In this document: positions 7,807 to 32,662 of the stretch, in pieces
Numbering within the stretch: the first letter of the stretch is position 1
Layout of the letters: every line of letters begins with the position of its first letter
Assembly (NCBI GenBank): GCA_023701285.1
Contig: JAMPXH010000034.1
Span: 1 to 35,231 of the forward strand
Source: Candidatus Didemnitutus sp.
Lineage (GTDB): Bacteria; Verrucomicrobiota; Verrucomicrobiia; Opitutales; Opitutaceae
DNA length: 35,231 nt
Direction of reading: 5' to 3'
The notes under the pieces: model-generated
What the model saw: only the letters and a program-made list of their open reading frames with translations
Told to the model about the DNA's origin: nothing
Database searches by the model: none
Translations under genes and position numbers: made by a program

Positions 7807-7817
7807 GGGGATCAGCT

Positions 7818-7845
7818 GGTGGGGGCGGTTGTCCACAACCGCCCT
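7818..7845 (+). repeat. REP family A, left copy flanking the RAYT gene
   Basis: GTGG at 7819-7822 is followed by GGGCGGTTGT (7823-7832), CC, and ACAACCGCCC (7835-7844), a perfect 10-bp stem. It lies 11 bp after the threonine dehydratase stop and ends 2 bp before the RAYT start. The copy at 8306-8333 is its reverse complement with one mismatch over 28 bases, and a third copy is at 17450-17477. Confidence 0.9.
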
Positions 7846-7847
7846 CG

Positions 7848-8300
7848 TTGCACTCCCGATGCGTTTCATCCCACGAAAAAGCCTCCCCCCACGAAATTCC
7901 TCTGTGGGTGAAATCCGGGGAGATTTATTTTTTCACGCTCGGCACGCGGACTCGCGGGACCGAAACGTTAACACGCCCGACCGCGGCTACGGCGCTGCTC
8001 GCAGCCGTGTCGCATTACCACACCACCGGGCGCTGGCACGCCCGTCTGTTTCTTCTGATGCCCGACCATCTGCACGCCCTGCTGGCCTTCCCACCGCACG
8101 CAACCATGCGCGAGGTCTGGCGCGATTGGAAACGCTACACGGCCCGGACCGTCGGCGTGGAATGGGAACGCGATGTCTTCGAGCACCGCTTGCGCGATCA
8201 TGAGAGTCTTGAACGCAAGGCGCGCTACATCCGTGAAAATCCGGTTCGCCAAGGCTGGGTGGCGACCGCAGAAGAATGGCCGTGGTATTTCGAGGCCTGA
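7848..8300 (+). CDS. REP-associated tyrosine transposase (RAYT, TnpA_REP type)
   Basis: A 150-residue Y1 HUH-type single-strand nuclease of the IS200-related RAYT group. The metal-binding HUH motif is MPDHLHALL, and the downstream helix carries ARYIRENPVRQGWV, whose tyrosine is the candidate nucleophile. It ends with the usual Trp/Tyr-rich EEWPWYF. There is no good ATG at the N terminus: the frame starts at TTG 7848, and GTG 7908 is an alternative. The gene is bracketed at 2 bp and 5 bp by inverted copies of REP family A, the arrangement called a REPtron, which implies those REPs are its substrate. RAYTs are usually single-copy, domesticated genes rather than self-mobile elements. Confidence 0.88.
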   Translation: MHSRCVSSHEKASPHEIPLWVKSGEIYFFTLGTRTRGTETLTRPTAATALLAAVSHYHTTGRWHARLFLLMPDHLHALLAFPPHATMREVWRDWKRYTARTVGVEWERDVFEHRLRDHESLERKARYIRENPVRQGWVATAEEWPWYFEA

Positions 8301-8305
8301 AATCC

Positions 8306-8333
8306 AGGGCGGTTGAGGACAACCGCCCCCACC
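8306..8333 (-). repeat. REP family A, right copy flanking the RAYT gene
   Basis: Read on the minus strand, GTGG (8329-8332) precedes a palindrome with 9-bp arms GGGCGGTTG and CAACCGCCC around a 4-base centre (8307-8328). It starts 5 bp after the RAYT stop and is inverted relative to the left copy, differing at one of 28 positions. The transporter gene start follows within 10-20 bases. Confidence 0.9.
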
Positions 8334-8341
8334 TGCGTCGC

Positions 8342-10852
8342 TTGATCTGCGTGGCGCCCTTTTCGCTCGGCGCTTTGGCCGGTCTCGTCTTCTCCTTTCT
8401 CCTTCCGCTTCTTTCCCGCGCCGCCGATCCGACGTCGGCCGCCGCGCCGCGCGTCACGCTCGACATCCCGATCTTCGCTGGCGGCTACGGCACCGCGTTC
8501 TATGAGGAGACCGCGCGCGAGTTCGAGCGGCTCCGCCCCGAGGTGCGCGTCAACATTTACGGCGACCCGCGCATCTCCGACAAACTCCGCGTGCGCATCA
8601 TCGATGGCCAGCTGCCGGATGCGATGCTGCCCTTCAACGTCCTCATCCCCGCCCTCGTCGATTCCGGCCGCCTGCGCGATCTCGCGCCGCACCTCGCCGC
8701 GCCCAACTGGGAAAACGACGCCGCGTGGGGCGACTCGTTCCTGCCCGGCGCGCTCGATGCCTGGCGGATTTGCGGCGGCACCTACGGCGTGCCGCTCAGC
8801 TACGCGTGCTGGACCATCTACTACAACCGCGCGCTCTTCCGCGCGCACGGCTGGACCGAGCCGCGCACGTGGGACGAGTTCTTCGTCCTCTGCGAAAAAA
8901 TCCGCGCCACCGGGCTCGCACCGGTCAGCCTCACCGGCATCTACGGCAACTACCCCGACGCGTTCCTCCGCGCCGCCTACTACAACCTCGCCGGGGCCGA
9001 CGCGTGGCGCGCGCTCAATGCGCTCGCGCCCGGGGCCCGCACCGATCCGCGCTACGTGCGCGCCGCCGCCGTGCTCCAGCGCATCACGCAACACCACACG
9101 CTCGCCGGCTGGGAGGGCGCCACGCACACCGCCGCGCAGACCGCGTTCCTCGAGGGCCGCGCCGCCATGTGTGTTTCCGGCTCGTGGATGATCTACGAGA
9201 TGGGCGCGCGCATCCCGGCGGATTTCGAGATCGGCGTGATGAATTTTCCCGTCTTCCCCGACGGTGTCGCCGATCCGCGCACGATCCAGACCGGCGCGGA
9301 TTACTTCTTCGCCTTCGCGACCGGCGACGCGGAGCGCGAGGCGCTCACGGTCGAATTCCTGCGCTTCCTCACCTCGCGGTCGCGCGCCGCCGCGTGGGTG
9401 CGGCGCGTGGATGCGCCGGTCGCCGTGCGCGGCGTGCCGCTGGAAGCCTTCTCGCCGCGCATGCGGCCCATCGCGGAGATGATCGCGCAGGCACCGGAGT
9501 CGTTCAACATGCCGCAAGTGATGCTGCAGACGCCCGGCGTGCGGCAGGCGCTGGTCGATCACCGGCTCGCGCTCATGGGCGGACGGATCACGCCGGAGGA
9601 ATTCGGCGCGCGCATCGAGGCCGCGGCCGCGCACGACCGGGCCCGCGCGGAAAATCCTGACGCGATCGACATCAAGCATCCCTTCGCCGGCACGGCCTTG
9701 CTCACCGCTCTCGCGGCGATCGCCGTCTGGCTGATTCTCCAGCGCACGAAGAAAAAATTCCGCGCGAACGAAGCCTGGAGGACGGAGTCATCCAAACCCG
9801 CCATGGAAGAAAGTGCGGATGGCACGCCGGCGGGGTTCGGCGACCCCGCCCTCCAACCATCGCAGCGCGCCGCTCTGCCGTCCGCCTCCGGCATGGGCGA
9901 TGCGACGGCTTTGCCGGATGCGTTGGAGAAAATCCCGGCGCCCGCCGCCACGCGGCCGCGCTTGCGCCCGGTCGCGGCGCTCGGCTTCGTCGGCCCGGCG
10001 TTCTTCCTCTACGTGGCGCTGGTGCTCGTGCCCGGCGTGGTGGCGCTGGGGTGGGCGTTCACGCAGTGGGACGGCATGGGCGCACGCGAGTGGGTGGGGT
10101 GGCTGAACTTCAAGGCGCTGCTCTTCGAGAGCGATGTGTTCTGGGCCGCGCTGCGCAACAACGCCTTCCTCATGCTCGTGCCGGCGGTGGTCGTGCTGCC
10201 GCTGGCGCTGGCGCTGGCCTACGTGCTGCACCGCGGCATCTGGGGCGCGGGGGTGTTCCGCGCGGTGCTGCTCTTCCCCAATCTGCTCGGCGGCATCGCG
10301 GCGGCGCTGCTGTGGATGACGGCCTACGAACCGCACGGCGGCCTCGTGAACGCCGGCCTCGTCGCGCTCGGCGATGCGCTCGGCTCGGACTGGCTGCGCT
10401 CGTTCGCCGGGTATCCGTGGCTCGCGCCGCGGCAGCTCTACTGGGCCATTGTCCCGATCTACGTGTGGATGGCCTGCGGCTTCAACCTCGTGCTCTATCT
10501 CGCCGCGATGGAAGGCATCAACCCCGAGCTCTACGAGGCCGCAGAGCTCGAGGGCGCCTCGCGCGCGCGGCAGTTCTTCTCCATCACGCTGCCGCTCATC
10601 TGGGAGGTCGTGGTGGTGAGCGCGGTCTTCATCGTCATCGCCGGGCTCAACGCCTTCGAACTCGTGTGGCTGCTCACGCAGCAGGACCCCGACACCTCCA
10701 CGCACACGCTCGGCACGATGATGGTGACGTCGATGTTCAAGGAATTCCAAATCGGCCGCGCCACGGCGATCGCGGTGTTGTTGTTCGTGCTCGTGCTCGC
10801 CGGCAGCGCGGCGCTCATGCGCGGGCTCCGGCGCGAGGAGGTGGAGTCGTGA
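8342..10852 (+). CDS. Sugar ABC transporter: solute-binding protein fused to permease (MalE-MalF-type)
   Basis: An about 836-residue fusion of two CUT1 carbohydrate-uptake subunits. After a signal sequence (SLGALAGLVFSFLLPLLSRA) comes a periplasmic solute-binding domain of about 440 residues, with GTYGVPLSYACWTIYYNRAL and a C-terminal segment typical of extracellular binding proteins. A membrane span (TALLTALAAIAVWLILQ) with a positive flank (RTKKK) returns the chain to the cytosol. A linker of about 55 residues follows, then a six-span permease with the EAA loop (YEAAELEGASRARQFFSITL). Start choice: an in-frame ATG at 8276 overlaps the RAYT gene and reads through the REP; TTG 8342 or GTG 8351 gives a proper signal peptide. 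The linker DNA contains a family B REP. The second permease overlaps by 4 bp; no ATPase gene is nearby. Confidence 0.88.
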   Translation: MICVAPFSLGALAGLVFSFLLPLLSRAADPTSAAAPRVTLDIPIFAGGYGTAFYEETAREFERLRPEVRVNIYGDPRISDKLRVRIIDGQLPDAMLPFNVLIPALVDSGRLRDLAPHLAAPNWENDAAWGDSFLPGALDAWRICGGTYGVPLSYACWTIYYNRALFRAHGWTEPRTWDEFFVLCEKIRATGLAPVSLTGIYGNYPDAFLRAAYYNLAGADAWRALNALAPGARTDPRYVRAAAVLQRITQHHTLAGWEGATHTAAQTAFLEGRAAMCVSGSWMIYEMGARIPADFEIGVMNFPVFPDGVADPRTIQTGADYFFAFATGDAEREALTVEFLRFLTSRSRAAAWVRRVDAPVAVRGVPLEAFSPRMRPIAEMIAQAPESFNMPQVMLQTPGVRQALVDHRLALMGGRITPEEFGARIEAAAAHDRARAENPDAIDIKHPFAGTALLTALAAIAVWLILQRTKKKFRANEAWRTESSKPAMEESADGTPAGFGDPALQPSQRAALPSASGMGDATALPDALEKIPAPAATRPRLRPVAALGFVGPAFFLYVALVLVPGVVALGWAFTQWDGMGAREWVGWLNFKALLFESDVFWAALRNNAFLMLVPAVVVLPLALALAYVLHRGIWGAGVFRAVLLFPNLLGGIAAALLWMTAYEPHGGLVNAGLVALGDALGSDWLRSFAGYPWLAPRQLYWAIVPIYVWMACGFNLVLYLAAMEGINPELYEAAELEGASRARQFFSITLPLIWEVVVVSAVFIVIAGLNAFELVWLLTQQDPDTSTHTLGTMMVTSMFKEFQIGRATAIAVLLFVLVLAGSAALMRGLRREEVES
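9829..9854 (-). repeat. REP family B copy inside the transporter linker coding sequence
   Basis: GGCGGGGTTCGG (9829-9840) and CGACCCCGCC (9841-9850) make a 22-base imperfect palindrome identical to the intergenic copy at 32637-32658 and reverse-complementary to the one near 17522-17545. On its own strand the leading tetranucleotide is GGAG (complement of 9851-9854). It is translated as AGFGDPA within the cytoplasmic linker of the binding-protein/permease fusion, without breaking the frame. Confidence 0.88.
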
Positions 10853-17519: not shown

Positions 17520-17545
17520 GTAGGGCGGGGTCGCCGAACCCCGCC
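17520..17545 (+). repeat. REP family B with canonical GTAG tetranucleotide
   Basis: GTAG (17520-17523) leads into GGCGGGGTCGCC and GAACCCCGCC. Positions 17524-17545 are the exact reverse complement of the palindromes at 9829-9850 and 32637-32658. GTAG in front of a palindrome is the layout described for REPs processed by RAYT enzymes. Confidence 0.88.
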
Positions 17546-32636: not shown

Positions 32637-32662
32637 GGCGGGGTTCGGCGACCCCGCCCTGC
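32637..32662 (-). repeat. REP family B, intergenic copy
   Basis: Its 22-base palindrome (32637-32658), GGCGGGGTTCGG plus CGACCCCGCC, is identical to the copy inside the transporter gene. On its own strand the leading tetranucleotide is GCAG rather than GTAG. It lies between the converging DUF805-SRPBCC and glycyl-tRNA synthetase genes. Confidence 0.88.

Follow-up and report, generated by a model that had tools for sequence, protein, structure and literature searches.

A 22-base palindrome within a transporter gene of this Didemnitutus genome is very probably (we estimate about 90%) part of a REPIN of 78 nt that inserted, as a non-autonomous element of a RAYT/REP system, into a gene that was already a fusion of a binding protein and a permease; of the two halves of the REPIN, the palindrome is the better preserved. 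Table 1 lists the features that bear on this proposal. By "the window" we mean the entire stretch of 35,231 nucleotides that was analysed.

Table 1. Features of the window, and a second in-frame REPIN elsewhere in the same genome (G000).
Feature	Position	Strand	Basis or details
RAYT left-flank palindrome, other family	7815..7845	+	inverted pair, 94% complementary
RAYT (REP-associated tyrosine transposase)	7848..8300	+	NCBIfam NF047646, 93.4 bits (cut-off 80)
RAYT right-flank palindrome, other family	8306..8336	-	inverted pair with 7815..7845; in 5' part of listed transporter ORF
Fused binding protein and permease ORF, 858 aa	8276..10852	+	Pfam domains
Linker from membrane anchor helix to permease	9746..9958	+	linker comparison; disorder in model
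Whole REPIN, GGAG...CTCC ends	9777..9854	-	pair geometry and hairpin fold; 78 nt = 26 codons
Degenerate partner REP core	9781..9802	+	head GGAG 9777-9780; 6/22 mismatches
Spacer between REPs, 26 nt	9803..9828	.	spacer range of 13 pairs, 22-28 nt
Intact REP core, AGFGDPA	9829..9850	-	15 exact copies in genome; head CTCC 9851-9854 (GGAG on minus strand)
REP copy, head GTAG	17524..17545	+	no coding-like ORF across it (codon score)
Intergenic REP copy, head GCAG	32637..32658	-	no ORF of at least 100 aa across it
PrmB REPIN	L047 1453-1522 (G000:C162:13966-14035)		in frame

The palindrome at 9829-9850, GGCGGGGTTCGGCGACCCCGCC, is a genuine REP (the minus strand reads GGCGGGGTCGCCGAACCCCGCC). The 4.02 Mb genome contains 15 exact copies of this 22-mer, 24 copies with up to 2 mismatches, and 30 with up to 3, while the reversed control has none. 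Within the window, there are 3 matches with up to 3 mismatches, versus 0.03 in shuffled sequences. The transporter copy is an exact duplicate of the one at 32637-32658, and 17524-17545 is another exact copy. The first-pass annotation had noticed the palindrome, its match at 32637, and its in-frame reading as AGFGDPA, and all of this is correct (the codons are 9830-9850 of the transporter ORF). The REP is an imperfect palindrome with arms of 8 bp around a centre of 6 nt. Many copies have a GTAG or GCAG head, and the transporter copy has GGAG; heads on most of the copies, often GTAG or GCAG, are as expected for GTAG-tagged REPs. Across the genus, 9 of 13 genomes have the REP with up to 2 mismatches. 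The only match of the reversed control was in G008, where the true pattern likewise occurs just once.

REPs are normally intergenic, as the first-pass annotation stated, yet in-frame intragenic REPs were published in 2013 (PMC3733652). This REP is mostly extragenic as well: we counted about 20 places of insertion at up to 2 mismatches (two halves at contig ends were merged by eye, and whether the copies at contig ends are coding is uncertain), and two of them are inside genes that look coding by their codon score. At a third place (L042), the REP is five codons away from where a coding-like ORF begins, and it is probably upstream of that ORF's true start. The codon score was trained on genes from the window, including the transporter gene, so it is not independent proof of coding for that gene. 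Three other matches in coding-like ORFs, each with 3 mismatches (L063, L066, and L068), have no REP head, and we regard them as chance matches. At one copy (L002, G000:C184:6868-6918), the similarity to the window extends about 28 bases past the REP (88% over 50), which may mean that the unit is longer or may be a coincidence of GC-rich sequence. Also, two contigs begin with REPs (G000:C2:43-64 and G000:C133:37-58) whose spacers are complementary. They resemble a single REPIN split in two, which suggests that contigs of this assembly break at REPs.

REPINs, which were introduced in 2011, are two inverted REPs and a spacer that form a hairpin, and REPs are tied to RAYTs (PMC3116915). Several copies of our REP are in inverted pairs, 46-49 bp apart, and the first-pass annotation saw only half of such a pair in the transporter gene. 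GGAG-GACGGAGTCATCCAAACCCGCC (9777-9802), 48 bp upstream of the transporter REP, matches the headed REP at 20 of 26 bases: the GGAG head is perfect and the core has 6 mismatches. The REP and this degenerate inverted partner form a REPIN of 78 nt, or 26 codons. Just 4 of the 70,412 26-mers in the window match the headed REP as well as the partner does, which is the number expected from the partner and the three exact copies. The transporter pair has the geometry of other REP pairs: the 13 pairs found across this genome and its sisters have spacers of 22-28 nt. (Pairs in sister genomes were counted irrespective of their coding status.) Both intragenic pairs are 78 nt long, a multiple of three, as against 3 multiples of three among the other 11 pairs. 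The minus strand of the REPIN, as DNA, folds over its full length into a single hairpin (z = -2.8; 2 of 200 shuffles were as good). When arm symmetry alone is scored, 8 of 60 codon shuffles equal the transporter REPIN, which is therefore not significant by this measure.

The transporter ORF matches Pfam families SBP_bac_1 and BPD_transp_1, so it is a fusion of binding protein and permease. It also has below-cut-off similarity to NCBIfam models of NgcE- and UgpA-type components of sugar transporters. The true start of the protein is likely the GTG at 8351, ahead of a probable signal peptide. ABC importers with fused binding domains, such as GlnPQ and OpuA, have binding protein and permease in one chain; in contrast to that type, here an N-terminal, sugar-type, membrane-anchored binding protein precedes the permease. 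In a structure model of 831 amino acids (built with 40 sequences; mean pLDDT 86.7), the linker corresponds roughly to residues 464-534, and residues 483-533 mostly have pLDDT below 50. This bears out the earlier view that the REP lies in an insertion-tolerant linker between domains. The REPIN encodes residues 474-500, where, in the model, the anchor helix ends and the disordered stretch begins, so the REPIN is predicted to sit in a largely disordered segment. Given the anchor helix and the topology, the linker is probably cytoplasmic.

The fusion is much more widespread than the REP. Of 252 genomes from the family, 83 have the protein at E ≤ 1e-80. We compared 82 of these (all but G190) and G049, from another family of the same order, for 83 genomes in total. 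(L092, L095, and L142 were dropped from the counts as they are from the same genomes as L075, L017, and L078.) In 80 of the 83, one open frame covers the binding protein and the permease or at least its first part; in three of the 80 (L079, L135, and L139), the frame holds the first part of the permease only. In the other three genomes, the gene is cut: in G034, a contig ends within the linker and the permease is on another contig; in G207, there is a TAG in the binding-protein part and the permease is on another contig; and in G201, there is an NN gap in the anchor helix. With a contig end, a stop, or a gap in each, these three are no evidence for separate genes. The other 79 linkers match the REP with 5 mismatches at best. 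We also built a tree from 40 of the 80 orthologues, leaving out the linker, in which the nearest relatives are G113 and G035; both lack this REP. (A search for related loci among genome contigs found one relative only, with figures identical to those of the G113 protein.) Because the orthologues, including the nearest relatives, are fused without the REP, we infer that the REPIN entered a gene that was already fused. The first-pass annotation had suggested comparing orthologues, with separate genes or with fusions with and without the palindrome in mind: the outcome was 79 fusions without it, with only cut genes otherwise.

The annotation had also suggested looking for steps in linker length. 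Anchored linkers in the 80 fused orthologues range from 45 to 102 amino acids, with a median of 52, and the linker of our transporter has 101. By eye, it is about 48 amino acids longer than that of G035, so the step is there, but the REPIN accounts for only 26 of the extra residues. Identity to the nearest relatives is only about 70%, too low to read exactly where in the linker the insertion begins and ends.

We found a second clear intragenic REPIN in the same genome, in the gene for PrmB (50S L3 glutamine methyltransferase; 308.8 bits to TIGR03533, cut-off 229.7). It too is 78 nt and encodes AGFGDPA. We aligned PrmB from 9 of the 13 genomes of the genus. (Of the other four, G009 did not pass a motif filter, the gene of G010 is split over contigs, and G011 and G012 had no match.) The site is empty in six species (G001, G002, G003, G004, G005, and G007). 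G006 has a REPIN at the same site, with GTAG...CTAC ends and a different centre in both arm halves, and G008 has a shorter, intermediate insert that has perhaps decayed. The PrmB frame of G009 (298 amino acids; a split match) resembles the genomes with empty sites. The REPINs of G000 and G006 could be due to shared descent or to two insertions at one site. Thus, for the transporter and for PrmB alike, there are homologues without the insert (79 linkers and six empty sites, respectively), and the frame is kept.

As for the mobile system, exact copies of the REP, in opposite orientation, flank a RAYT-like ORF in a sister genome (G002, contig C3). Its protein is 36% identical to the RAYT of the window; it is RAYT-like by sequence. 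It has relatives in 11 of the 13 genomes of the genus. In our own assembly of 220 contigs, no RAYT is flanked by this REP, and the G002 protein, at a cut-off of E = 1e-6, matches a single gene there, the RAYT gene of the window, which is flanked by another family of palindromes. (This protein is below the cut-off for Pfam Y1_Tnp, with 20.7 bits versus 23.) The unit of RAYT and flanking palindromes (7815-8336) lies between a gene that, by eye, resembles threonine dehydratase and the transporter gene. Searching the genome with Y1_Tnp found one further, different transposase. L091 (G000:C144:20890-21216) is a Y1 transposase with a long C-terminal part and inverted flanking ends like AAGGGGTCATGGCTTGACTCTTGACA. 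A RAYT may well have moved the REPIN, and the link is circumstantial, through the RAYT-like gene that the same REP flanks in G002.

We propose that the 78-nt REPIN landed in the flexible linker of an existing fusion. Three features would have let it persist: a length divisible by three, one open frame through it (AGFGDPA...), and the flexibility of the linker. Afterwards, one REP arm would have decayed while the protein's frame stayed open. The linker would tolerate inserts, and the proposal does not require that the protein benefits. The REPIN is probably translated, and the insert is probably neutral.

Other genomes have other repeats in the same linker. Inverted repeats scoring at least 19 are present in 4 of the 80 linkers, as compared to 1 of 632 equal segments from the same genes; for scores of at least 13, the counts are 8 of 80 and 7 of 632. 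The sole control segment scoring at least 19 is a second palindrome in the transporter gene of G134. There, the 57-bp linker palindrome occurs again some 600 bp away, within the part for the binding protein (G134:C146:1572-1628). Also, in L011 (G017), the binding-protein part is interrupted by more repeat-like peptides (GSEFGVQGSGSG..., AGGTPAP...).

We searched for joined pieces of the linkers in their own genomes, with 40 candidates scored per genome. Among the matches listed, four of five linkers with strong inverted repeats have dispersed copies (G017, G134, G251, and G069), with at least 20 other places for each; for L072 (G232), no second copy of its strong inverted repeat was among the matches listed. 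Four of ten further long linkers (G144, G080, G036, and G077) also have dispersed copies among the matches listed, with about 4 other places for G036. For the other six (G145, G013, G071, G074, G236, and G243), none was among the matches listed. The repeats of G144, G080 (by eye), and G036 are palindromic, and G077 has a non-palindromic AATCCGC repeat. By eye, the elements of G251 and G069 have GTAG...CTAC ends and the element of G017 has GGAG...CTCC ends, and we interpret these ends as REP heads. Together with G000, dispersed repeats are found, among the matches listed, in 9 of 16 linkers that were chosen for their length or their palindromes, so this is not the rate for the family as a whole. 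In contrast, among ten random draws from the 54 linkers of at most 55 amino acids, none had a dispersed repeat among the 40 candidates scored per genome. (These searches covered 26 of the 80 linkers; the other 54 include L116, with 63 amino acids, and L078 and L108, with inverted-repeat z above 3.) The tree of 40 orthologues includes seven of the nine repeat-bearing linkers (G134 and G251 were left out), and these seven require seven changes, with absence checked for part of the other rows.

On balance, we lean slightly towards the view that the linker of one ancient transporter fusion has been a recurrent landing pad, within this family, for unrelated, lineage-specific, REP-like elements, so that REP turnover would be a main source of the linker's length and sequence. 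Inter-domain linkers in REP-rich Verrucomicrobia may be alike in general. The annotation's suggestion that REPs create linkers thus holds in part: REPs supply linker sequence, but this fusion predates its REP.

We considered several other explanations. The first-pass annotation had read the linker as a former intergenic region, REP included, that became coding when two genes fused. This would account for a linker that is exactly at the domain junction, and most copies of the REP are indeed outside of coding-like ORFs. However, with fused genes across the family and even in another family of the order, all but one of them lacking this REP, and with different repeats in the linker of other lineages, we rejected this explanation as very improbable. 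The annotation also raised the concern of a sequencing error, and an assembly artefact could in principle be a frameshift, or two genes wrongly joined because of a REP. The genome is in many contigs, some of which end at REPs. But both halves of the transporter match the same collinear orthologous gene, which is why we rejected a misjoin, and the fusion is present in 80 genomes, so an artefact of any kind is hardly credible.

Alternatively, the REPIN might act in the mRNA, with a hairpin that pauses ribosomes, or that protects or cuts the transcript, and so tunes folding between the binding protein and the permease. The plus strand of the REPIN, as RNA, folds with -35.9 kcal/mol, compared to -29.4 ± 3.1 kcal/mol for shuffles (z = -2.1; 7 of 200 were as good). 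However, this z is modest, one arm has decayed, no other linker has this REP at fewer than 5 mismatches, and the sampled short linkers have no dispersed repeat among the candidates scored (10 of 10). A role in the mRNA therefore seems unlikely. We also doubt that the linker, or its sequence, is an actively preferred target, beyond mere tolerance. A preference would explain why one linker has several kinds of dispersed repeats and why very strong inverted repeats are so concentrated there. But a rough estimate, which assumes about 100 copies per genome, 400 kb of intergenic sequence, a 90-bp target, 80 genomes, and one third of insertions in frame, gives of order 1 per repeat family, so tolerance and selection against other sites may suffice without any targeting.

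In-frame insertion of a REPIN into a gene, as we propose, has known parallels. The main text of PMC3733652 (2013) describes in-frame intragenic REP dimers that encode 20-30 amino acids, as here. There, most intragenic GTAG REPs were in Opitutus terrae, which is also a verrucomicrobium, some REP families have degenerate heads, flexible linkers or loops were suggested as neutral places, and the recB genes of X. campestris and X. oryzae carry different REPs at roughly one position. The words transporter and permease are absent from that main text, and its section 15 does not compare one linker over many orthologues. Among the titles and beginnings of abstracts that we searched, which did not extend to the supplementary list of PMC3733652, we found nothing on this transporter linker; similarly, nothing on this transporter gene came up in literature searches for verrucomicrobial fusions of binding proteins or for surface loops with palindromic elements. 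In-frame intragenic REP dimers are already known, then, and what is new is this transporter case, with its unusually full comparative record. Unlike the REPINs described in PMC3116915, which are extragenic, the transporter REPIN is coding and one of its arms has decayed. Palindromic elements are also found in frame within genes of Rickettsia and other bacteria (reviewed in PMC2229807). These resemble the transporter REPIN in being palindromic mobile elements that are translated in frame in conserved proteins, but they are longer (105-146 bp) and belong to another family of elements. Our results correct the reading of the REP as a mark of the fusion event. They also develop the general suggestion that linkers or loops tolerate REPs into a case for comparison: a single gene with 80 orthologues, dispersed repeats in the same linker in at least 9 genomes, and PrmB as a second example whose site is empty in sister species. 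This allows one to measure how often mobile palindromes supply linkers and how fast the coding ones decay.
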